From Candidatus Goldiibacteriota bacterium HGW-Goldbacteria-1 (GTDB taxonomy: Bacteria > Oederibacteriota > PGYV01): DNA of 64,000 nucleotides. Shown here piece by piece: positions 44,277-55,900 of this stretch. Where the stretch lies: contig PGYV01000003.1 in NCBI GenBank assembly GCA_002839855.1, positions 62,001-126,000 on the forward strand, written 5' to 3'. Under the pieces are notes generated by a model. It was given only the letters and a program-made list of their open reading frames with translations, searched no databases and was not told the DNA's origin. Every line of letters starts with the position of its first letter. Within the stretch, counting starts at the first letter, position 1. The position numbers and the translations under genes were made by a program.

Positions 44277-46133
44277 ATGTCAAAAAAGGATAGAAAAAGC
44301 ACAGGCATTTATAATTATATTGTAAAAAGGGCGGCGGGATTTATCGCCCATACGGGTGTAATGACCACGGGCCGCTGGATATATTTTGGGGCTATTGTGG
44401 GTGTTATTTCCGCTGTGTGCGCCATGTTATTTGCTTTGTCGCTTAAGTTTACGGGATTTATTTTTCTTGAAACTATTGCCGGAATTAAAACGTCTTCACT
44501 TGGCATGATGATATTTGAAGAGGGATACAAAAAATGGCTTATCCTTGTGGTGCCGGCTTTTGGCGGCCTTGTTTCCGGATGGCTTACGACAAAATTTGCC
44601 CCTGACGCAAAAGGGCACGGCACGGATTATGTCATTAAAAGTTTTCATAAAAACGCGGGAAATATATTTTTAAGGGTGCCTGTAGTTAAAATAATTGCCA
44701 CGGCATTTGTGATTGGAACAGGCGGGTCGGCGGGACGCGAAGGCCCCATAGCGCAGATAGGCGCGGGGTTTGCGTCTGTGCTTGCAAGGTTTATGAAGTT
44801 AAACGACAGGGAAAAAAGGCTTTTAATAATGGCCGGCGCGGCAGGCGGAATTGCGGCGATTTTTGGAGCACCGTTAGGGGGCGCGATTTTTGCGGCTGAA
44901 GTCCTTTACAGAAATCATGAACTGGAAGCGGAAGTTATTCTTCCTTCTATTATTTCATCAATCGTGGCGTTTTCTATATTTCGCAGCGTGATGGGGATAG
45001 AGCGCCTTTTCAGCATCGGATCGGTGTCATTCAGTTCGGCGTATGAACTTATTCCCTATACCATACTTGGTGTGGGCTGCGCTGTTGCGGGGATAGTGTT
45101 TGTAAAGTTATTTAACCGGGTGAAAACAGCTTTTAACGGATATAATAAAATATCAGTAATTTTTAAACCCGCGCTTGGCGGATTTTTGCTTGGGGTTATG
45201 GCTTTATATCTGCCGGGAGTGCTTGGCGGCGGTTATCAGTATATGCAGATGGCTTTTGACGGTTCTATTCCGGTTCTTCTTATGTTTCTTCTGGCTGCCG
45301 GAAAAATGGTTTCAACATCGCTTACTATAGGCTCCGGCGGTTCCGGCGGTATATTTGCGCCGTCGCTTTTTATAGGGGCGATGACCGGAGGCGCGATTGG
45401 AGGAGTATTAAGATATATGCTTCCTCCGGGCTGGATGCCGCCGGAAGCGGCATTTATTGCCGTGGGGATGGGCGGCCTTTTCGCCTGTGTTGCCAGAGTA
45501 CCGCTTGCCAGCCTTATAATGGTATCTGAAATGACAAGGGGTTACGACCTTCTTGTGCCTATGATGCTTGTATCTGTTATTGCTTTTTTGCTTAACAGAA
45601 AACCTTATACTGTATATGACGAACAGGTTAACGGGCTGGTTGATTCACCCGCTCACAGGGGGGATTTTGAAATGGACGTTCTGGAGGATATAATTGTAAC
45701 GCCTGATATAATTGAAAAAGGGGCCGTTGTACTTCCAAGGCGCGCGCCTATTAAAAAGGCAATTGATACGGCTATGAATTCAAAACAGGGAATTTTTCCT
45801 GTAATTGATCAGAAAGACGGAGGCCGGGTTGTGGGGGTTTTTTCCCTGCAGGACATAAAGGAATATTTGCTTGAAAGCGGCCTTGGGGAAGAGGCGCTTG
45901 TGGAAGATATAACGCAGCATAATTTTATCCGTATTCATATCGGAGACAGGCTTCATTCAGTGGTGGATAAATTTACAGCCAATGATGTTGACGCGCTTCC
46001 CGTGATTGATGAAAAAACGGGAATGCTTATGGGAATGTTTTCAAGGGACGGGCTTATTAAACTTTATAATAAAAAGCTTATAGCGTTATCTTTAAGAAAA
46101 AGCAAAGCGGGAAATATGCCTGCAGGACAGTAA
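44277..46133 (+). CDS. ClC-family chloride channel/transporter with CBS pair
   Basis: A 618-residue membrane protein. The ClC core has GTGGSAGREGPIAQIGAGFAS (the gating glutamate near residue 155), then GAAGGIAAIFGAPLGGAIFAAEVL and GSGGSGGIFAPSLFIGAMTGG (GxFxP). The C-terminal 130 residues carry two CBS domains (VLPRRAPIKKAIDTAMNSKQGIFPVID... and FIRIHIGDRLHSVVDKFTANDVDALPVID...) that usually bind adenine nucleotides and regulate gating. Whether it is a channel or Cl-/H+ exchanger cannot be decided here. The next gene is a proton antiporter, hinting at shared pH or ion balance. Confidence 0.9.
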   Translation: MSKKDRKSTGIYNYIVKRAAGFIAHTGVMTTGRWIYFGAIVGVISAVCAMLFALSLKFTGFIFLETIAGIKTSSLGMMIFEEGYKKWLILVVPAFGGLVSGWLTTKFAPDAKGHGTDYVIKSFHKNAGNIFLRVPVVKIIATAFVIGTGGSAGREGPIAQIGAGFASVLARFMKLNDREKRLLIMAGAAGGIAAIFGAPLGGAIFAAEVLYRNHELEAEVILPSIISSIVAFSIFRSVMGIERLFSIGSVSFSSAYELIPYTILGVGCAVAGIVFVKLFNRVKTAFNGYNKISVIFKPALGGFLLGVMALYLPGVLGGGYQYMQMAFDGSIPVLLMFLLAAGKMVSTSLTIGSGGSGGIFAPSLFIGAMTGGAIGGVLRYMLPPGWMPPEAAFIAVGMGGLFACVARVPLASLIMVSEMTRGYDLLVPMMLVSVIAFLLNRKPYTVYDEQVNGLVDSPAHRGDFEMDVLEDIIVTPDIIEKGAVVLPRRAPIKKAIDTAMNSKQGIFPVIDQKDGGRVVGVFSLQDIKEYLLESGLGEEALVEDITQHNFIRIHIGDRLHSVVDKFTANDVDALPVIDEKTGMLMGMFSRDGLIKLYNKKLIALSLRKSKAGNMPAGQ

Positions 46134-46195
46134 TGTGAAAAGATAATTTAAAGGCAGATACAGCAGCTTTAAAAGTTTTATATAATGGAGGACTG

Positions 46196-47467
46196 ATGGA
46201 ATTTTCAGCCGCGGTTTTATTTATAGGATTAATGGTTTTTTTCGCACATTTTTTTTCTGCCACGTTTAACCGCACAAAGATTCCGGACGTTCTGCCTTTG
46301 GTAATCATAGGAATACTTGCAGGCCCGGTCTTTAATTTTATAAATCCGGAAATTCTTGGAAGGTTTGGGGAAATTTTCAGTACGCTTACCCTTGTGATAA
46401 TACTGTTTGAAGCCGGGTTGTGCCTTGATATTTCTGTCATCAGGTCATCCGCCGGCAGCGGCGCCAAACTGGCTGTTTTCAGTTTTTTATTGACTTTCGC
46501 GGGGGCAGGTTTTATTTCATATTTTTTTATGGGTTTGGAACTTCTTCAGGCGGCTGTTTTTGGGGCAATATTGGGCGGCGGCGCGCCTTCAATAGTAATA
46601 CCGATAATTAAAAAGATGAGCGCGGGCGGTAAGACGGCGTCTGTTGTTGTATTTGAAAGTACAATAAGCGAGGTGCTTTCAATAGTTATCGTGCTGCAGC
46701 TTATAGCCACTGCCGGGGCAGGCGGTATTGACGCCGTACACATGTCCGCAAAAGTATTTTTTGCGTTTCTCATTGCGGTGGTAATAGGCGTTGTGTCAGC
46801 CCTTTTCTGGTCAATGATGTTAAACAGAATAAGGCTTCTGGAAAACAGCGCTTTTACAACCCCTGCTTTTGTGTTTATTGTTTTTGGCGGCGCGGAAATA
46901 GCCGGTTTCAGCGGGGCTATTGCGGCGCTTTGCTTTGGGATAATGCTTGGCAACATGCAGAAAATAAACGTGGGCCCCCTTAAGCATATTAACGTTACCA
47001 TGAATGAAGCTGAAAAAAGTTTTATGGCGGAAGCTGTCTTTTTAATGAGGACTTTTTTCTTTTTATATATCGGGATTTCCATAAAGCCTGCGGGTTTTGA
47101 TGTATTTGCATTTGCGCTGGTGATTACGGCTGTTATCTATGTTGCCAGGGTCATTTCGGCTCAGCTGTCGTTTAACAGGAAAGAAAACAGGTTTGATGTT
47201 ACAGCTGCCGGCGTGATGGTTTCAAGGGGGCTTGCATCAGCGGTTCTTGCGGGTATTCCGCTTCAGGCGGGAATGGAAGGCGGGGAGATAATAAGGGATA
47301 CCGTTTATGCCGTTATTCTTCTAAGTATTCTGCTGAATTCATTTTTATCATATTCTGTTGAAAGGCAAAAGGGTATGTACAGGATTATATCCGCTTTCTT
47401 TTCCGGATTCAGCACGGAAAAAACAGATGACACGGCAGCGGATAATAATGAAAAAGGCGGCTTTTAA
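46196..47467 (+). CDS. Cation:proton antiporter (CPA/NhaP-KefB type)
   Basis: A 423-residue membrane protein with about 12 helices. The N-terminus (VFFAHFFSATFNRTKIPDVLPLVIIGILAGP) and ILFEAGLCLDISVIR are typical of CPA1/CPA2 antiporters, followed by GAILGGGAPSIVIPII and VVFESTISEVLSIVIV, where CPA proteins often have an acidic pair. It lacks TrkA/RCK domains. TGGAGG precedes the ATG. The ion specificity (Na+, K+) is not readable. Confidence 0.85.
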   Translation: MEFSAAVLFIGLMVFFAHFFSATFNRTKIPDVLPLVIIGILAGPVFNFINPEILGRFGEIFSTLTLVIILFEAGLCLDISVIRSSAGSGAKLAVFSFLLTFAGAGFISYFFMGLELLQAAVFGAILGGGAPSIVIPIIKKMSAGGKTASVVVFESTISEVLSIVIVLQLIATAGAGGIDAVHMSAKVFFAFLIAVVIGVVSALFWSMMLNRIRLLENSAFTTPAFVFIVFGGAEIAGFSGAIAALCFGIMLGNMQKINVGPLKHINVTMNEAEKSFMAEAVFLMRTFFFLYIGISIKPAGFDVFAFALVITAVIYVARVISAQLSFNRKENRFDVTAAGVMVSRGLASAVLAGIPLQAGMEGGEIIRDTVYAVILLSILLNSFLSYSVERQKGMYRIISAFFSGFSTEKTDDTAADNNEKGGF

Positions 47468-47484
47468 TAACTTTTGGTTAAGGG

Positions 47485-47513
47485 TTGCTTGTGGGCTGCT
47501 TATTATATATAAT
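47485..47513 (+). promoter_or_regulatory. Sigma70-type promoter for the DUF5752/glycosyltransferase operon
   Basis: TTGCTT (47485-47490), 17 bp, TATAAT (47508-47513). The start near 47520 lies about 180 nt before the ATG at 47700. Confidence 0.75.
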
Positions 47514-47519
47514 AAATAC

Positions 47520-47699
47520 AGGTTAAAAAGTGTTTTTTATAAAGTAAACTTACAGGCAGCCGGGCTTATGCCCTTTAATTCCGGAATTCTAAAAGCATAA
47601 AAAAATATTTTCATTGCCTGCTGTTTTTGTACTTGGTGTGATTTTTCCGGGCAAAAGAGTTTACTAAAAATACGGCTGTATTGTTTAAGGAGGGTAATG
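47520..47699 (+). other. Long structured 5' leader of the DUF5752/TreT operon
   Basis: About 180 nt without a gene. AGTAAACT (47543-47550) can pair with AGTTTACT (47658-47665), 8 bp; nested inside are CAGGCA (47553-47558) with TGCCTG (47615-47620) and a GGGC-TTAT-GCCC hairpin (47562-47573). The nested long-range pairing suggests a multi-arm fold. It resembles no riboswitch I know. The ribosome-binding site AAGGAGGG (47688-47694) lies outside the fold. Confidence 0.4.
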
Positions 47700-48368
47700 A
47701 TGGAAGGGAATGCGGATGAAAAAAGTTTCAGATTTTACACGCGGATGCACCTGTCTGAATTAACCGGCGTTTCAGCCGGAAATCTGGAAGAACTTTTAAA
47801 ATGCATAAAAAGCATTGACGGTTCGTCCATCTACCACCATACTCACAGATTTCTTCAGCAGCACGAATACCTGAATCCGGAACCTGCCAATGACTTTGCG
47901 TATTGGGTTGATGAATCGCTTGGTGAAAGCAGGCTTGCGGAAGCCCTTGCAAGCATTGATACGGTAAGTTTTAAAAGCATAAGGATGTTAAGGGAGGAAT
48001 TATCAAATGTAATAGCAAATTATCTTGAATCAAATAAAGGCAGGCAGTTAAGGTCGGCTATGCAGGGGATGGAATTTAATTTTGTAAAATCGGTAAGTTT
48101 TGTTTTTCCCACCGGTTATACGGCGTCTTCAGCGGGCGAGTTTGTGGAATGCCTTGAAAAAATAACCTCGGATTCGCTTTATTTTCATATGTTTGAATCA
48201 AGGCTAAGGCTTGATAAACAGGAAAATGATTTTTCCCTGTGGCTAAGAAGTTCGCTGGGGCTGGATAAACCTGCTGACGCCATAAACAGGCTTGACCCTT
48301 ATACCCATACTATCGGGCAGCTGCGCAGGGTTATTATTGATATTTTAAGAAAGGGCGGTGTTATATGA
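47700..48368 (+). CDS. DUF5752 family protein
   Basis: A 222-residue protein built from two copies of a helical unit of about 95 residues: FRFYTRMHLSELTGVSAGNLEELLKCIKSIDGSSIYHHTHRFLQQHEY... and FNFVKSVSFVFPTGYTASSAGEFVECLEKITSDSLYFHMFESRLRL.... Each ends in a DFxxWL or DFAYWV motif. The family has no known activity but commonly sits beside TreT-type trehalose synthases, as here. Two ATGs are adjacent; 47700 is 5 nt from the AAGGAGGG, 47697 only 2. It overlaps the glycosyltransferase gene by 4 nt. Confidence 0.85.
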   Translation: MEGNADEKSFRFYTRMHLSELTGVSAGNLEELLKCIKSIDGSSIYHHTHRFLQQHEYLNPEPANDFAYWVDESLGESRLAEALASIDTVSFKSIRMLREELSNVIANYLESNKGRQLRSAMQGMEFNFVKSVSFVFPTGYTASSAGEFVECLEKITSDSLYFHMFESRLRLDKQENDFSLWLRSSLGLDKPADAINRLDPYTHTIGQLRRVIIDILRKGGVI

Positions 48369-49576
48369 ACAGCATAAATGATTACGCAAAAATAGTGGGG
48401 CAGGCGGTTCTGGATGACCTTAAAATTGCGGCTGAAAAATTAAAAGGAAAAAAAATCACGCATGTAAATTCCACGCCGGTAGGCGGCGGAGTCGCGGAAA
48501 TACTGACAAGAATGGTGCCCCTGCTTAATCAGCTTGGGGTTCGGTCTGACTGGCAGGTAATAAAAGGCAACAATTCATTTTTTGATGTCACAAAAAAAAT
48601 GCATAACAACATACATGGAAGCGGTGAGCCCCTTACCGGAAGTGAAATAAAGACTTTCATTGAAAACGGCGCGTTTAATGAGGAAAATATGCCCTGTGAT
48701 TCGGACATAATGTTTATTCATGACCCTCAGCCGATAACGCTTATTAATAAAAAACGGGATAATAAATGGATATGGCGGTGCCATGTTGACGCAAGTAATC
48801 CAGTTGCTTCCACATGGAAATTCCTAAGGGAGTATATTGACCGTTATGATTCCGCCGTATTCTCTTCGCCCCTTTTTGCAAGGCAGCTGCCCATAAGGCA
48901 GTTTTTAATCTCTCCGTCAATTGACCCGTTAAGCGATAAAAACAGGGATATGGAGCCGGAAGAAATAAAAAAGTACCTTGATAAATACAATATACCGACT
49001 GACAAACCTTTAATTACCCAGATATCCAGGTTTGACAGGTTGAAGGACCCTGTGGGGGTAATACAGGCGTACAAAAAGGTAAAACCTTATGTTGACTGCA
49101 GGCTTCTGCTGGCAGGCGGGACGGCGGTGGATGACCCGGAAGGTAATGTTGTTTATAATGAAGTGCTTGAAGCCGCGGGAAAAGATAAAGACATAATGAT
49201 ACTTAACATGCCGCAGGATGATAACGCCGTTAACGCCATTCAAAGGGCGTCAACGGTGATAATGCAGAAATCACTTAAAGAAGGCTTTGGGCTTACAGTC
49301 AGCGAGGCGCTGTGGAAGTCAAAACCGGTTTTGGCTTCACATGTGGGCGGGATCCCGCTTCAGATTAAGCATAAATATTCGGGGATGCTGTGCCATTCAA
49401 TAGACGGAGCCGCGTTTGCGCTGAAAATGCTGCTGAATAACCCTGATTTCGCGGACAAACTGGGCAAAAACGGGAAGGAACATGTAAGGAATAATTTCCT
49501 GCTTACAAGGCATATTAAAGAATATATGCTGCTTTTTCTATCCCTTTATTCCAAAGAGGACGTTGTGCTTTTTTAA
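48365..49576 (+). CDS. Glycosyltransferase family 4, trehalose synthase (TreT)-like
   Basis: A 403-residue cytosolic enzyme with two Rossmann halves. The N-terminal ITHVNSTPVGGGVAEILTRMVPLLNQLG is characteristic of TreT, which makes trehalose from nucleoside-diphosphate glucose and glucose. IWRCHVDASNP and VFSSPLFARQLP are also seen. The C-terminal half has the GT4 donor-site ITQISRFDRLKDPVGVIQAY and KEGFGLTVSEALWKSKPVLASHVGGIPLQI (EX7E-type). The product may be trehalose or a related compatible solute. It is coupled to the DUF5752 gene. Confidence 0.85.
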   Translation: MNSINDYAKIVGQAVLDDLKIAAEKLKGKKITHVNSTPVGGGVAEILTRMVPLLNQLGVRSDWQVIKGNNSFFDVTKKMHNNIHGSGEPLTGSEIKTFIENGAFNEENMPCDSDIMFIHDPQPITLINKKRDNKWIWRCHVDASNPVASTWKFLREYIDRYDSAVFSSPLFARQLPIRQFLISPSIDPLSDKNRDMEPEEIKKYLDKYNIPTDKPLITQISRFDRLKDPVGVIQAYKKVKPYVDCRLLLAGGTAVDDPEGNVVYNEVLEAAGKDKDIMILNMPQDDNAVNAIQRASTVIMQKSLKEGFGLTVSEALWKSKPVLASHVGGIPLQIKHKYSGMLCHSIDGAAFALKMLLNNPDFADKLGKNGKEHVRNNFLLTRHIKEYMLLFLSLYSKEDVVLF

Positions 49577-49579
49577 CCC

Positions 49580-49608
49580 TTGCTTTATTTGCCATTTAAA
49601 AATATAAT
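49580..49608 (+). promoter_or_regulatory. Sigma70-type promoter for der, just before a hairpin
   Basis: TTGCTT (49580-49585), 17 bp, TATAAT (49603-49608). The expected start, about 49615, coincides with the left arm of the hairpin at 49614-49638. The box pattern (TTGCTT/TATAAT, 17 bp) is identical to that at 47485. Confidence 0.7.
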
Positions 49609-49613
49609 GTTTA

Positions 49614-49645
49614 AAGGAGGCCGTAATAAGGCCTCCTTATTTTTT
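49614..49645 (+). terminator. Intrinsic terminator-like hairpin between the TreT-like gene and der
   Basis: AAGGAGGCC (49614-49622) pairs with GGCCTCCTT (49630-49638) around a 7-nt loop, followed by ATTTTTT. It can end the upstream operon. It contains a Shine-Dalgarno-like AAGGAGG in its left arm. Confidence 0.8.
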
Positions 49646-49671
49646 GATGTTAATCGGAGTTAAGGAGCAAA

Positions 49672-51003
49672 ATGAAAAGTGATTTTACGGTTTTAATTGT
49701 AGGAAGGGAAAATGTCGGCAAATCCTCCATTTTCAACAAACTAATCAACCAGCAGAAGGCCATAGTTGACGATTATCCGGGGGTAACCCGCGACAGGCTT
49801 TACGGCGATGCCGAATGGTTTGGAAAAAAGTTTACGCTTGTGGACACGGGCGGAATTCTGTTTGACGGCGAAGACCTTATAAAAACAAAGGTTGTGGATA
49901 CCATAAAAGATGTCATTAAAAGCGCTGACCTTGTGCTTATGGTGGCGGACGGCAAAAGCGGACTTATTCCGGATGACAAAAAGATCCTGACTTTTATAAA
50001 AGAAAATAACCCCAATTACGTTGTCGCGGTCAATAAGATTGATTCGCAGGCGGCGGTTGATAAGACATACGAATTTTATAATATGGGGATTGACAAAATT
50101 TTTCCGGTATCTTCAGCGCATTCGCTTGGGCTTGATGACCTGCTTGATTACATAGCGGAGAAAATACCAAAAGTAAAACCGGACGAAGATGACGGCAAGC
50201 TTCCCAAGATAGCAATAACAGGAAGGGAAAATGCCGGCAAATCATCGCTGTTTAACGCCCTGCTTAAAGAAGAGCGCTCCATAGTAACTGAAATACCCGG
50301 CACCACCCGTGACGCGGTGGATTCAATGATAGAGCTAAACGGAAAGAAATTTATAATTATAGATACCGCGGGCGTGAAAAAACGCAGGAATATGAAGGGC
50401 AAGCCGGAAGCGTTTGGAATAGGCAGGTCTTTTTCCAATGTTAAAAGAAGCGACGTTGTCCTGCATGTCATTGATATCACCACGGGAATTACTGAAGTGG
50501 ACAAGAAAGTGCTTGGCTATGCCGCGGAGCATTTAAAAGCTGTTGTTATCTGTGTTAATAAGTGGGATCTTGTAAAACCTTCAGACAGGGACGCTAAAAG
50601 AAAAGAATATATTGAATATCTTCGCGATGAAATGAAATTTATGGACTACGCGCCGGTTGTTTTTGTATCCGCTAAAAATTCGGCTGGCCTTGAAAAGCTT
50701 ATAGATATTGTAATTCGTGTTGAAAAAAAGTATAATTTCAGGGTAAAGACGTCAATTTTAAACAGAATGATAAGGGAAGCGGTTTTCAGAAAGGCGCCTG
50801 TGACAAAAAAAGGCAGCCTTAAAATATACTATGCGACGCAGGTTTCTGCCGCGCCGCCCACTTTTACGCTTTTTGTAAATTCGGCGGATAAAATTCACGA
50901 AAGTTATTTAAGATATGTTGTAAATAAGATCCGCGAAGATTTTGGATTTGACGGATGCCCTATTAAACTTAAAGTAAAGCAGAAGGAAAAAAAGGAGGCT
51001 TAG
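49672..51003 (+). CDS. der: Ribosome-biogenesis GTPase Der (EngA)
   Basis: A 443-residue protein with two tandem Era-like G domains and a C-terminal KH-like domain, the Der hallmark. G1 motifs are GRENVGKSS (residues 8-16) and GRENAGKSS (near 183); G3 motifs are DTGG (59-62) and DTAG; G4 motifs are NKID and NKWD. It is needed for 50S assembly. AAGGAG precedes the ATG. It starts an operon with plsY and gpsA, a grouping common in other bacteria. Confidence 0.96.
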   Translation: MKSDFTVLIVGRENVGKSSIFNKLINQQKAIVDDYPGVTRDRLYGDAEWFGKKFTLVDTGGILFDGEDLIKTKVVDTIKDVIKSADLVLMVADGKSGLIPDDKKILTFIKENNPNYVVAVNKIDSQAAVDKTYEFYNMGIDKIFPVSSAHSLGLDDLLDYIAEKIPKVKPDEDDGKLPKIAITGRENAGKSSLFNALLKEERSIVTEIPGTTRDAVDSMIELNGKKFIIIDTAGVKKRRNMKGKPEAFGIGRSFSNVKRSDVVLHVIDITTGITEVDKKVLGYAAEHLKAVVICVNKWDLVKPSDRDAKRKEYIEYLRDEMKFMDYAPVVFVSAKNSAGLEKLIDIVIRVEKKYNFRVKTSILNRMIREAVFRKAPVTKKGSLKIYYATQVSAAPPTFTLFVNSADKIHESYLRYVVNKIREDFGFDGCPIKLKVKQKEKKEA

Positions 51004-51006
51004 CAC

Positions 51007-51675
51007 GTGGGAATAATTATAATTCTTGCAAGCATTGCAGCTGCGTACCTTATGGGTTCCATACCGACAGGCTATCTTATCGTTAAAGGGTTAAAAGGCA
51101 TTGATATCAGAACTGTGGGAAGCGGAAATATAGGCGCGACAAATGTTAAACGCGTGCTTGGCATGAAATGGTTTTTTGGAGTTTTATTTCTTGATGCTTT
51201 AAAAGGTTTTTTGCCGGTTCTTGCGGTAAAAATATTATTTCCGCAGTATCAGTTTCTTCCCGTACTGGCGGCTTTGTTCGCGGTTCTGGGCCACACTTTC
51301 ACGCTGTTTCTTAATTTTAAAGGCGGCAAGGGTGTAGCCACAGGGCTTGGTGTTTTTCTTGCGCTGGCGCCTTTATCCGTAATTTGTTCTGTTGCGGCGT
51401 TTGCCGTGTTCTTATGGATGTTTAAATACATTTCACTGGGTTCAATAGTGGCGGCAATTCTGCTGCCGGCTTTTGTTTTTATATTCGGGGAAAACGGCTT
51501 TTTAAATCTGGTACTGATATTCGCCATCTTTACGGCATTTTTTGTGGTGTATAAACATAAAGAAAATATTAACAGGCTTAAGGAAGGCACGGAAAATAAA
51601 TTCACGTTAAAGACACAGCAGAAAGAAGAAGGACCGGTAAAGCCTGAAAATAAAAAGAAGGCGGTAAAGAAATGA
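51007..51675 (+). CDS. plsY: Glycerol-3-phosphate acyltransferase PlsY
   Basis: A 222-residue inner-membrane enzyme with about five helices. It transfers acyl groups from acyl-phosphate to glycerol-3-phosphate. The motifs are YLMGSIPTGYLIVKGLKGIDIRTVGSGNIGATNVKRVLG, LGHTFTLFLNFKGGKGVATGLGVFL and the later VVYKHKENINRLKEGTENKF. It starts at GTG behind AAAGGAGG. The Lys-rich tail is longer than in most homologues. Its stop overlaps gpsA (ATGA), giving two neighbouring phospholipid-precursor steps. Confidence 0.95.
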   Translation: MGIIIILASIAAAYLMGSIPTGYLIVKGLKGIDIRTVGSGNIGATNVKRVLGMKWFFGVLFLDALKGFLPVLAVKILFPQYQFLPVLAALFAVLGHTFTLFLNFKGGKGVATGLGVFLALAPLSVICSVAAFAVFLWMFKYISLGSIVAAILLPAFVFIFGENGFLNLVLIFAIFTAFFVVYKHKENINRLKEGTENKFTLKTQQKEEGPVKPENKKKAVKK

Positions 51676-52679
51676 AGGTATCTGTAATCGGCGCGGGCGG
51701 ATGGGGAACGGCACTGGCGCTTATACTGCATTCAAACGCAAACGAAGTGCTTATATGGGAATTTGTACCCGCCTACGCGGAAGAGCTTAAGCAGAAAAGG
51801 GAAAATGTAAAATTCCTTAAGGGCGTAAAAATACCGGATAATATTGAAATAACAAATGATTTAAAACGCGCCATTGATTTCGCGGAAGTGGTTGTGCTGG
51901 CTGTGCCGTCGCACGTCATGCGTTCGCTGGCTTTAAATATAAAAAAATTAAACTATAAGAAAAAAATATTTGTAAGCGTGGCAAAAGGGATAGAACAGGA
52001 CACTTTAAAGACTATGTCCGCTGTCATAAAACAGGTTTTAGGGCCGGTTCAGTTTGCGGTGCTTTCAGGGCCTTCGCACGCTGAAGAAGTGGGCAGGCAG
52101 GTTCCCACCACTGTGGTTGCGGCTTCCAAAAAAGCGGCTATTGCAAAAAAGATACAGGTGCTTTTTTCCAATAATGCGTTCAGAGTGTACAGCAGCACTG
52201 ATATAAAGGGAGTTGAACTTGGCGGCAGTTTAAAAAATGTTATTGCCATTGCCGCCGGGGTTTTAGACGGGCTTGGGCTTGGCGACAACACCAAAGCCGC
52301 GCTTATAACAAGGGGCCTTGCGGAAATGAAAAGGCTTGGCGTAAGGATGGGCGCGAAGGAAGACACTTTCTTTGGCCTTTCCGGAATAGGCGATTTAGTC
52401 GTAACCTGCGAAAGCAAACACAGCCGAAACAGGTCCGTGGGTGATCAAATCGGGCAGGGCAAAAAAATAGATGATATATTAAAAGGTATGGAAATGGTGG
52501 CTGAAGGCGTAAAGACCGCGAAATCCGCCCATGACCTTTCAAAAAAATACAAAGTGGAAATGCCGATAACAAATGAAATATATGAACTGATATATTCAGG
52601 TAAAGACCCAAAACAGTCCATTAGCGACCTTATGACAAGAAAGTTAAGGTCAGAGCGCGAACTGTTAAATAAAGAGTAG
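51672..52679 (+). CDS. gpsA: Glycerol-3-phosphate dehydrogenase [NAD(P)+]
   Basis: A 335-residue enzyme reducing dihydroxyacetone phosphate to sn-glycerol 3-phosphate for phospholipids. The N-terminal dinucleotide site is VSVIGAGGWGTALALIL. The substrate and catalytic region has VLSGPSHAEEVGRQVPTTVV, then GSLKNVIAIAAGVLDGLGLGDNTKAALITRGLAEM (catalytic Lys) and FFGLSGIGDLVVTCESKHSRNRSVG. Length is normal. It supplies the substrate of PlsY, encoded just upstream. Confidence 0.96.
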   Translation: MKVSVIGAGGWGTALALILHSNANEVLIWEFVPAYAEELKQKRENVKFLKGVKIPDNIEITNDLKRAIDFAEVVVLAVPSHVMRSLALNIKKLNYKKKIFVSVAKGIEQDTLKTMSAVIKQVLGPVQFAVLSGPSHAEEVGRQVPTTVVAASKKAAIAKKIQVLFSNNAFRVYSSTDIKGVELGGSLKNVIAIAAGVLDGLGLGDNTKAALITRGLAEMKRLGVRMGAKEDTFFGLSGIGDLVVTCESKHSRNRSVGDQIGQGKKIDDILKGMEMVAEGVKTAKSAHDLSKKYKVEMPITNEIYELIYSGKDPKQSISDLMTRKLRSERELLNKE

Positions 52680-52691
52680 GGGGTACGGCAT

Positions 52692-53048
52692 ATGGAAATA
52701 AGGGATAAAAAGTACTACCCAATAAGGGAAGTGGCACAGATAACGGATGTCAAAGAGTCCGTAATAAGGTTCTGGGAGCAGAACTTTGATGAATTAAAAC
52801 CCATAAAGAACAGGGTAGGGCAGAGAAAATATACAAAAAAAGACATTGATGTTATCTTTATTATAAAAAGGCTTCTTTATGATGATGAATATAAAATAAG
52901 CGGCGCGCAGAAGAAGGTAAAAGAGATTCTTGCCGCGGAAGACGGCCAGCAGCTGGAACTTTTTGAACTTGAAGAGAAATTAGGCCAGCAGAAGATTGAA
53001 GATGTTAAAAAAGGACTTATGGAGTGCCTGGAAATATTAAGGAGTTAG
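52692..53048 (+). CDS. MerR-family transcriptional regulator
   Basis: A 118-residue protein. Residues about 8-75 are the MerR winged helix-turn-helix (YYPIREVAQITDVKESVIRFWEQNFDELKPIKNRVGQRKYTKKDIDVIFIIKRLLYD). A short coiled coil forms the C-terminus. It has no Cys-based metal-binding tail, so it resembles the HTH-only MerR proteins often seen near ihfA/plsY-type operons. The inducer and target are unknown. It follows gpsA by 12 nt and precedes the tRNA array. Confidence 0.9.
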   Translation: MEIRDKKYYPIREVAQITDVKESVIRFWEQNFDELKPIKNRVGQRKYTKKDIDVIFIIKRLLYDDEYKISGAQKKVKEILAAEDGQQLELFELEEKLGQQKIEDVKKGLMECLEILRS

Positions 53049-53080
53049 GAAAAACCTTTTAAACAAGGGCAAAAATATCC

Positions 53081-53109
53081 TTGAAACAAATAGTTCACAA
53101 TGGTATATT
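53081..53109 (+). promoter_or_regulatory. Sigma70-type promoter upstream of the tRNA-Pro array
   Basis: TTGAAA (53081-53086), 17 bp, TATATT (53104-53109). The expected start, near 53116, is 30 nt before the first hairpin unit. No terminator is visible before the second tRNA, so one transcript could hold the three units and both tRNAs. Confidence 0.65.
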
Positions 53110-53145
53110 ATAAAATCTTAGTTGTGCAATAACTTATTCGTATAG

Positions 53146-53239
53146 TCGGGGCGTAGCACCTGACGATAGATGAGGAAAAGATTTATGATAGTCGTCAGGT
53201 ACACTTCCGCCTGACATGATAGATTTTATGTTTGAAAAG
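53146..53239 (+). repeat. tRNA-Pro-headed hairpin unit 1
   Basis: A unit of 94 bp. It starts with TCGGGGCGTAGC, the same 12 nt that begin both downstream tRNA-Pro genes. An inverted repeat follows (ACCTGACGA at 53158-53166, TCGTCAGGT at 53192-53200). ACACT follows the right arm, and then an AT-rich tail with ATGATAG...TTTTATGTTTGAA. No tRNA 3' half (CGCCCCGACCA) is present, so it is not a tRNA. Confidence 0.85.
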
Positions 53240-53333
53240 TCGGGGCGTAGCACCTGACGATTGATGAGGAAAACGCTTCATGATAATCGTCAGGTACACT
53301 ATCCTCTCGATAGAATAGGAAATTAAGGTAAGG
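53240..53333 (+). repeat. tRNA-Pro-headed hairpin unit 2
   Basis: 94 bp, the same head and core. The stem is perfect over 11 bp (53252-53262 with 53285-53295); an inner stem (ATGAGG with CTTCAT) closes a 6-nt AAAACG loop. Its tail differs from those of units 1 and 3. Confidence 0.85.
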
Positions 53334-53430
53334 TCGGGGCGTAGCACCTGACGATTGATGAGGAATAGCTCTTCATGATAATCGTCTGGTACACTACCTC
53401 CCAGTAATGATAGTTTTTATGTTTGAATAG
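53334..53430 (+). repeat. tRNA-Pro-headed hairpin unit 3
   Basis: 97 bp, with stem 53346-53356 against 53380-53390 and one T-T mismatch, the same inner stem and a 7-nt loop. Its tail (ATGATAGTTTTTATGTTTGAATAG) runs straight into the tRNA-Pro(CGG) gene, and a similar tail precedes tRNA-Pro(GGG). Confidence 0.85.
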
Positions 53431-53431
53431 T

Positions 53432-53506
53432 CGGGGCGTAGCGCAGTGGTAGCGCGCTTGGTTCGGGACCAAGAGGCCGGAGGTTCGATCCCTCTCGCCC
53501 CGACCA
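53432..53506 (+). tRNA. tRNA-Pro, anticodon CGG
   Basis: A full cloverleaf: acceptor CGGGGCG (53432-53438) with CGCCCCG (53496-53502), discriminator A, encoded CCA (53504-53506). The D stem is GCGC/GCGC. The anticodon stem CTTGG/CCAAG encloses the loop TTCGGGA, so the anticodon is CGG. The T arm is GGAGG-TTCGATC-CCTCT with one G-T pair. The adjacent repeat units share only its 5' 12 nt. Confidence 0.95.
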
Positions 53507-53574
53507 TGAGATATAGTATTAAGAAGTATATATAACAAATAAGATTCCGGGCATACTCCACCCGGTAATCGTTG

Positions 53575-53617
53575 CAGGAGATTGCCTGACAGCAAGTGTC
53601 AGGGAAATTTACTCCTG
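53575..53617 (+). repeat. Two-level hairpin between the tRNA-Pro genes
   Basis: An outer stem CAGGAG (53575-53580) with CTCCTG (53612-53617) encloses an inner stem CCTGACA (53585-53591) with TGTCAGG (53597-53603) and a GCAAG loop. There is no T run, so it is unlikely to be a terminator. It sits where the hairpin units sit relative to the next tRNA, with a similar AT-rich tail after it. Confidence 0.7.
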
Positions 53618-53645
53618 AAATGACAGTTTTTATGTCCGTAAAGGT

Positions 53646-53722
53646 CGGGGCGTAGCGCAGTTGGCTAGCGCGTTCGCTTGGGGTGCGAGAGGTCGCTGGT
53701 TCAAATCCAGTCGCCCCGACCA
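53646..53722 (+). tRNA. tRNA-Pro, anticodon GGG
   Basis: The acceptor CGGGGCG (53646-53652) pairs with CGCCCCG (53712-53718), A discriminator, CCA encoded at 53720-53722. The anticodon stem TTCGC/GCGAG has one T-G pair, and the loop TTGGGGT gives GGG. The T arm GCTGG-TTCAAAT-CCAGT is normal. Together with the CGG tRNA it covers CCC/CCU and CCG codons; a UGG tRNA must lie elsewhere. Confidence 0.95.
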
Positions 53723-53764
53723 GTAATTTTAATAAAAAAAACCAACTAAATAACCGGTGAAAAT

Positions 53765-54484
53765 GTGAAGAAAAGCCTGGCAGTTTTGGCAGTCCTTTTG
53801 TGGGCAGCGTGCATACATGCTGAAAGCGTTGATGTAAACCATTTTCTTGAATGCCCGTCAGTTTCCGGTGAAAGCGGCTTTATTTATAACCCTTCGGCTT
53901 ATTCCCTTGGATACGGCAATTTAAGCGCCGGCATTCACCAATTTATGTTCAAACTTAATTATGGCTTTATAGATATCTTGGAAGCCGGATTTACCTTTGA
54001 TTACGGAGAGACCAGCGATTTTGTGCAGGCGCTTAAAAATATAGACTTGAACCTTAAAGTAAGGCCTTTTAATGAAGAAGAGCATTACGTAACGGCCGCT
54101 TTTGGAATTGAAAACATGCCCGTGAATCTGCTTGAAGGTTTTGGCGACAGGATGAGTATTTACGCGGTTGCTTCAAGAAAACTTTTTGACTGGGGTTTTA
54201 ACCTTTCTGTGGGTTTTAAGAACAACATCCGGGGCAATGAATTAAAACCGCTTGAATGGAACTTTTTTGCCGACGCGGCAAAGGTAATAAACGATACAGT
54301 AATGGTAATTGCGGAGTATGAAGACGGCAATCTTAATGCCGGCGTAAAGATAAGTATCAGTTATAACCTGAATGTGGAAGCGTATGTAGAAAGGTTAAAC
54401 CGCACCGGGGATTTAAAAAGTTTTGGAGAATTTCTGCAGGAACACTTCATATTCGGGATTACTTTCATTCAAAAGGCGTATTAA
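53765..54484 (+). CDS. Exported, probable outer-membrane barrel protein, unknown family
   Basis: A 239-residue protein starting at GTG after CCGGTGA, with a signal peptide ending near CIHAE. The mature protein has repeated beta-strand patterns rich in Gly, Tyr and Phe (GNLSAGIHQFMFKLNYGFIDILEAGFTFDYGE, YAVASRKLFDWGFNLSVGFKN, NAGVKISISYNLNVEAYV) and resembles small YjbH/DUF-type barrel modules, though I cannot name one. Its last base is the first of the acyP start codon. Confidence 0.6.
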   Translation: MKKSLAVLAVLLWAACIHAESVDVNHFLECPSVSGESGFIYNPSAYSLGYGNLSAGIHQFMFKLNYGFIDILEAGFTFDYGETSDFVQALKNIDLNLKVRPFNEEEHYVTAAFGIENMPVNLLEGFGDRMSIYAVASRKLFDWGFNLSVGFKNNIRGNELKPLEWNFFADAAKVINDTVMVIAEYEDGNLNAGVKISISYNLNVEAYVERLNRTGDLKSFGEFLQEHFIFGITFIQKAY

Positions 54485-54762
54485 TGTCGGAAATGGCCGG
54501 CGTGTTAATAACGGTAAGCGGAATGGTGCAGGGTGTGGGCTATCGCTGGCACTGCAGGCAGCAGGCAGCCGCGCTGGGGCTTAAAGGGTACGTGAAAAAT
54601 CTGGAAAACGGCGATGTGGAACTTAAAGTATTTGGGGAGCGCGGGGATATAAACGGGCTGATATCTGAAATCACAGGGCGTGATAAGCCTTTTGCCGTGA
54701 CAGGCATAAAAATTGATGACATATCTTTTGATAAAAGTTATAATGATTTTGTAATATTGTAA
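54484..54762 (+). CDS. acyP: Acylphosphatase
   Basis: A 92-residue protein that hydrolyses carboxyl-phosphate bonds. The acylphosphatase signature is clear: VSGMVQGVGYRWHCRQQAAALGLKGYVKNLENGDVELKVFGE, with the catalytic Arg in GYRWHC and Asn in VKNLENG. Length and fold pattern are normal. The ATG overlaps the upstream TAA by 1 nt. Confidence 0.94.
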   Translation: MSEMAGVLITVSGMVQGVGYRWHCRQQAAALGLKGYVKNLENGDVELKVFGERGDINGLISEITGRDKPFAVTGIKIDDISFDKSYNDFVIL

Positions 54763-54790
54763 TACGCTTTTTAAAAAAGCCGGGGGGGCT

Positions 54791-55900
54791 ATGAAGAAAA
54801 AAAAGAAAGCGGCAGTGGGAAAAAAGAAGATAATTAAAAAGGTTAAAAGCAAAAAGATAAAGAAAACTGTTGTATCAGTAATTGCAAAAAAGCCGGGGAA
54901 GAAAGCTGCAAAAAAAGAGGAACCATCCGAACTTGCCGAAGATTTTGCCGCCGATACGGAATCTGAACAGGATACCGAGGATGTTTCAGGGGACAAAATA
55001 AACATAAAGCGGGACCTTATTTTAAAAGGGATTGAAGATGAAGAGGAAGATGAAAAATCCATATTAAAAGCGGTAAACGGCAAGGACGCCCTTGCCCTGT
55101 ACTTTGACGAAATAAGGGCGGAAAAGGTATTAAGCGCGGAAGAAGAACGCGACCTTATTATTAAAACGCAGCACGGCGATGACATTGCCAAGGCAAAGCT
55201 GACCAAGGCAAATCTGAAACTTGTGGTGAAAATAGCAAAAAAATATGAATACTTTGGCGTGCCTTTAATTGATCTTATTGAAGAGGGCAATATAGGCCTT
55301 TTAAAAGCGGTTGATAAGTTTGAAGTGGAGCGGGGGTTTCGGTTCAGCACATACGCCACCTGGTGGATAAAGCAGTCCATAAACAGGGCTATTGCCAACC
55401 AGAAAAACACAATAAGAATACCGGTGCATATACTGGATGTATATCATAAGTATTTAAAGCTTCTGGAAAAAGAAGTAAAAGATAAAGGTAAAATTCCGGA
55501 AAATTACGATATGGCAAGGAAATTAAGAATAGACCCTATTAAATTAAATGAGATACTTAACATTATTAAGTCGCCAAAGTCCCTTGACCTTGAATATGAA
55601 AGCGAAGACGGCGAAGGCGGCAGGTCTTTAAAAGACACCGTTGAAGATATGGTACAGGCAAAACCGGACCAGGAACTGTTTGACATTGAAAAAAAAGAAA
55701 CTATGATGGAACTTATCCGTATGTTAAAACCAAACGAACAGCAGGTAATAATCTGCAGGTTTGGCCTGGAGAATAAACAGATACTGACACTGGAAGACAT
55801 AGGCAAAAAACTTAAACTTACGCGCGAGCGTATCAGGCAGATAGAGGCAATTGCAATAAAAAAACTTAAGTATTTTATGAAGACCGCCGACAAAAAATAA
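54791..55900 (+). CDS. Sigma-70 family RNA polymerase sigma factor, group 2-like
   Basis: A 369-residue sigma factor. Residues 1-45 are extremely Lys-rich (MKKKKKAAVGKKKIIKKVKSKKIKK...). Region 1.2 begins near DALALYFDEIRAEKVLSAEEERDLI. Region 2 is KANLKLVVKIAKKYEYFGVPLIDLIEEGNIGLLKAVDKFEVERGFRFSTYATWWIKQSINRAIANQKNTIRIPVHI, and region 4 ends LTLEDIGKKLKLTRERIRQIEA. In region 2.4 the Gln of the -10 reading pair is kept, but the usual Thr is Asn (QSINR), and the C-terminus is short. This looks more like RpoS-type group 2 than the housekeeping factor. GGGGGG precedes the ATG. Confidence 0.88.
   Translation: MKKKKKAAVGKKKIIKKVKSKKIKKTVVSVIAKKPGKKAAKKEEPSELAEDFAADTESEQDTEDVSGDKINIKRDLILKGIEDEEEDEKSILKAVNGKDALALYFDEIRAEKVLSAEEERDLIIKTQHGDDIAKAKLTKANLKLVVKIAKKYEYFGVPLIDLIEEGNIGLLKAVDKFEVERGFRFSTYATWWIKQSINRAIANQKNTIRIPVHILDVYHKYLKLLEKEVKDKGKIPENYDMARKLRIDPIKLNEILNIIKSPKSLDLEYESEDGEGGRSLKDTVEDMVQAKPDQELFDIEKKETMMELIRMLKPNEQQVIICRFGLENKQILTLEDIGKKLKLTRERIRQIEAIAIKKLKYFMKTADKK

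Follow-up and report, generated by a model that had tools for sequence, protein, structure and literature searches.

The gene for the ribosome-assembly GTPase Der (EngA) in the window, i.e., the whole 64,000-nt stretch analysed here of genome G000 from an uncultured Goldbacteria-related bacterium, appears to have a promoter that would start transcription at the base of an intrinsic terminator, and the same arrangement recurs before der in a second family of the order. According to sequence comparison, the chances are about even that this start-site terminator both throttles der and terminates the operon in front of it.

All features described here lie on the plus strand of the window. The upstream gene (48365..49576) encodes a TreT-like trehalose synthase/glycosyltransferase of the GT4 type (Pfam TreT_GT1, 6e-51, and Glycos_transf_1) and is itself preceded by a DUF5752 gene. 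It is followed by a −35 element TTGCTT (49580..49585, 3/6 to TTGACA), a 17-bp spacer, and a −10 element TATAAT that is a perfect match (49603..49608). The predicted +1, 5–8 nt after TATAAT (49613..49616), coincides with the base of a terminator-type hairpin AAGGAGGCC-GTAATAA-GGCCTCCTT (49614..49638), which begins 5 nt past TATAAT and has 9 bp, a 7-nt loop, and arms at 49614-49622 and 49630-49638. An ATTTTTT tract (49639..49645; A49639 and T6 at 49640-49645) completes the terminator, and the remaining 26 nt of leader (49646..49671) carry the Shine-Dalgarno (SD) sequence AAGGAG of der (49672..51003; TIGR03594, 497 bits against a cut-off of 306.7). The coordinates given in an earlier note on this DNA, which had placed TATAAT at 49603-49608 and the hairpin with its T run at the predicted start, are right. 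In G000, the start of der is overlapped by an 11-codon open reading frame (ATG TTA ATC ... TGA, 49648-49683), whose stop, to judge by eye, is lost in both G001 and G002 of the same genus, so a conserved leader peptide is improbable.

The hairpin has the sequence form of an intrinsic terminator, namely a stable G+C-rich stem of 9 bp followed by A and T6. Its energy is −17.3 kcal/mol, and none of 200 dinucleotide shuffles folds equally well. Among the 17 candidates of a terminator scan over 45000-55000 (shuffled sequence yields 11.2 on average), it has the most G-C pairs (6) and ties for the most pairs in total (9). The only second hairpin in the leader folds is weak. As for known leaders in Rfam, such as the L20 leader, the best scores are 12–18 bits against gathering thresholds of 38–100. 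A dispersed REP-like repeat is rejected, as the der hairpin occurs at one place in 2.86 Mb.

The promoter is missing from the promoter-scan list because the scan needs 4/6 at −35 and TTGCTT reaches 3/6. Its TTGC is common to G001, G002, G007, G013, G010, and G005, and TTTAAAAATATAAT at −10 is the same throughout the genus. No fitting promoter is found in the 26 nt from the T run to ATG, where the best match is 6/12, so each der transcript, whether from its own promoter or from read-through, would cross the terminator. A der start downstream of 49645, which the earlier note had named as the observation that would overturn its reading, is accordingly unlikely. In G010, about 90 nt separate the T run from ATG, leaving room for another promoter.

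Within the genus, the −35 and −10 elements and the stretch from hairpin through SD are retained in G001 and G002, while changes have accumulated in the promoter spacer and the discriminator, above all in G002. The 53-nt block from AGGAGG to AAGGAG, which takes in the SD, has 0/53 differences between G000 and G001 and 1/53 between G000 and G002. Divergence at fourfold sites of der is 47/180 for G001 and 86/166 (52%) for G002; beside the latter, 70/144 fourfold sites are changed in TreT. The binomial probability of such conservation is about 1e-7 (G001) and 9e-16 (G002), for a block picked after viewing the alignment. Eight hairpin pairs are conserved in the genus, with unrelated stems in their place in G007, G013, and G010. 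The loop and the bases past the T run are also kept in the genus, beyond the needs of a bare terminator.

This uniformity would suit a free small RNA of about 31 nt, with SD- and anti-SD-like arms in the genus and der expression incidental, since the element is a full promoter-to-terminator unit with unchanged loop and arms. Such an RNA is, however, very improbable: the arms are unrelated outside the genus, the element is always located before der, and no Rfam match comes near threshold. The AAGGAGG that the earlier note saw hidden in the hairpin does exist in the 5′ arm and matches the anti-SD of the genome (16S ends GGATCACCTCCTTTCTA), but it is confined to the genus; since the hairpin arms in family f6 are unrelated, AAGGAGG is not the conserved property. 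By eye, pairing between the der SD and the 3′ arm CCTCCTTA seems feasible; such pairing is not conserved in f6. A switch between SD and anti-SD built on the two arms is at best genus-specific, as f6 hairpins have other arms, and was rejected. The 3′ end of 16S rRNA (CGTAACAAGG ... CACCTCCTT) is similar to CCGTAATAAGG and CCTCCTTA at 49621-49639 of the window, a similarity that may be chance.

Across the order, 12 of 14 genomes (G000–G013) have a readable der upstream region; G011 is truncated by the end of its contig, and G008 gives a partial, weak match only. A hairpin about 4–13 nt after TATAAT, followed by a T run, is present in 7 of the 12 (G000, G001, G002, G007, G010, G012, and G013), in one of them weakly. 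The f6 promoters are TTGCTT-16-TATAAT in G007 and G013, TTGCAA-17-TATAAT in G010, and TTGTAA-16-TATAAT in G012. Hairpin arms are AGGAGGCC in the genus, ACGCC and GCGCC in G007 and G013, a long AAAGACGTGTC-type stem in G010, and CCCG in G012. The observed score is reached by 0 of 1000 shuffles for G000, G001, G002, and G010, and by 22, 43, and 12 for G007, G013, and G012, respectively. G007 and G013 have short stems (5 bp), and the weakest member is G012, with T4 tracts only.

In families f2–f5, the element is found in 0/5 readable genomes, and thus der does not generally require it. In G003, G004, and G009, der lies 18–24 nt past the upstream gene and the element is absent; in G006, boxes resembling TATAAT are present and a hairpin is absent. 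In G005 (f4), TTGCTT-17-TATAAT precedes a short leader that lacks a hairpin, and this marks the promoter as belonging to der. Beyond the order, the DNA upstream of der was inspected by eye in 11 cases from the same phylum and 6 from farther away; in none is TATAAT directly followed by a hairpin and T run. Among these more remote genomes, G025, G028, and G037 have a plain TATAAT, and in G040 a terminator-like hairpin with T9 stands without TATAAT. A scan of genome contigs mainly returned the order genomes already included.

In G007, G013, and G010, open reading frames with similar C-terminal ends stop 170–200 nt before der. The upstream gene thus differs between f1, the family of the genus, and f6, and the arrangement travels with der rather than with its neighbour. 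Since relatives keep the arrangement despite changed hairpin letters, it is probably a built-in throttle and not an accident. The claim of the earlier note that the der promoter fires into a hairpin at +1 gains from conservation in two families and from the hairpin-free promoter in a third; the roles it had allowed for the hairpin (operon end, cap, or abortion of transcription) are separable by sequence in part only.

These comparisons also bear on a simpler explanation, in which the hairpin does no more than terminate the TreT operon, TATAAT has arisen by chance in AT-rich DNA, and der expression depends on read-through. It would fit the fact that no other terminator is visible between TreT and der. 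Terminators close before a gene are, moreover, not rare, with 11/58 intergenic terminators in G000 lying at most 60 nt from a start, and TATAAT occurs within 16 nt upstream of the stem 7 times at 89 terminators, versus 0–3 in farther 16-nt bins. We nevertheless consider this explanation unlikely, because TTGC and TATAAT are kept in the genus while the spacer diverged, because the promoter is found again in f6, where a different gene lies upstream, and hairpin-free in G005, and because the ten remaining short-gap terminators all lack TTG-TATAAT at the stem. According to rough ORF calls, strong terminators stand 15–54 nt before a co-directional start at 11 places in 464 kb of G000 (e.g., L120:18198, L121:13669, L125:16422, and L129:15937). 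Such short-gap terminators, often without promoter room before the gene, may be intra-operon throttles.

The arrangement at der is rare. Under a criterion of at least 4 G-C pairs, a stem start within 13 nt, and at least 5 T in the following 7 bases, 1/77 TTG-N19..21-TATAAT sites in 464 kb of G000 qualifies, which is der. In 388 kb of G007, G010, and G002, 3/59 TTG-N-TATAAT sites qualify, all of them der. Pooled over these four genomes, 4/136 promoter-like sites qualify, all der, in samples chosen to include the der contigs. Promoters running into terminators as a lineage-wide style are unsupported by these site counts. Genome-wide in G000, with −35 elements beginning TTGC or TTGA and a looser tail rule, der is the best of 31 distinct places. 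Hairpins containing 2 or more G-C pairs are present at three further places among the 31, namely one with 4 such pairs and two with 2, rpsU being one of the latter.

The AT-rich rpsU hairpin ranks next after der among the 31 places. In G000, rpsU (S21; L152, minus strand, ~1800-1640; G000:C9:59300-59150) has TTGACT-17-TATAAT and, 5 nt on, AAAGCAA-TTT-TTGCTTT with a T run. The element has a shorter form in G002, and G001 is without a clean T run; in the genus, rpsU may be a second, weaker case of an attenuator at +1. The f6 rpsU leaders (G012 L161, G013 L162, G007 L163, and G010 L165) carry a long hairpin GTCTGT..../....ACAGRC of −25 to −32 kcal/mol with a T run directly after, which, to judge from its sequence, is likely an attenuator of S21. 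TATAAT, a hairpin, and a T run also meet at C2:48023 (L114:8023-8046), C3:39607 (L129:19607-19628), and C1:94095-94131 in G000, which share GAGRCG-type palindromes. These palindromes, dispersed and of the GAGACGCAA..TTGCGTCTC type, lie near others such as ACGCGGGTCTTTAGCCCGCG and look REP-like. C2:48023 and C3:39607 were rejected as der-like cases, since their surroundings look like REP-like intergenic repeats and no good −35 is present.

As for the mechanism, the transcript from the predicted sigma-70 promoter of der would open with an intrinsic terminator. RNA polymerase would initiate at the base of the stem and complete hairpin and U tract within the first ~31 nt; a large share of complexes would be released at the U tract as a tiny RNA, and the remaining ones would read on into der and the genes behind. 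Promoter use, termination at the hairpin, and its frequency are all inferred from the DNA. Since the hairpin is the only visible terminator of the upstream gene, der would be insulated from that operon and its own promoter throttled. Against a throttle count the weak −35 and the lack of an evident sensor or antiterminator, as no RNA precedes the stem.

The same stem might instead serve as a 5′-terminal stem-loop that shields der mRNA from 5′-end-dependent decay, with termination weak because polymerase is barely past the promoter. The stem begins a few nt from the predicted 5′ end in both f1 and f6, and mRNA-stabilising 5′ stem-loops are known in E. coli, according to work cited in PMC3997798. 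A cap does not need a T run, yet in each of the seven leaders the stem runs straight into T4–T7 (in G012 after one intervening base), and we regard a shielding role as doubtful. Returning to termination at the start site, it is conceivable, though rather improbable, that the element is an attenuator coded wholly in the first ~31 transcribed bases and linking the ribosome-assembly GTPase to growth state. With no leader RNA for sensing, it would fall to the initiating polymerase or to a hairpin-binding protein to decide between release and escape; candidates on the polymerase side would be start-site choice, sigma retention, NTP levels, and elongation factors.

The case raises the question of how intrinsic termination acts on a polymerase just out of the promoter, for which it offers a compact natural test construct, and it suggests a way to hold a gene of an uncultured lineage at a low level without a regulator. 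Usual leader attenuators place a sensor before the terminator, whereas here a conserved terminator stands at +1 of an essential gene. The pyrG leader of B. subtilis combines reiterative transcription with a terminator. The der element resembles it in having a terminator near the start site and, potentially, control tied to initiation; unlike pyrG, it has no G/C-run start or known nucleotide link. Among the matches listed in the open-licence literature, there is no report of der attenuation or of a promoter firing into a +1 terminator. There is good documentation for intrinsic terminators that act prematurely within 5′ UTRs, such as that of E. coli ispU (PMC7815308), and der shares with them a hairpin and U run between promoter and coding sequence. 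In contrast to ispU as described there, the der stem starts at about +1, with no preceding RNA to act as sensor or antiterminator. Finally, the der stem is predicted to lie at the RNA 5′ end like the stabilising stem-loops of ompA and papA, as described in work cited in PMC3997798, but unlike these it is directly followed by a terminator-type T run.
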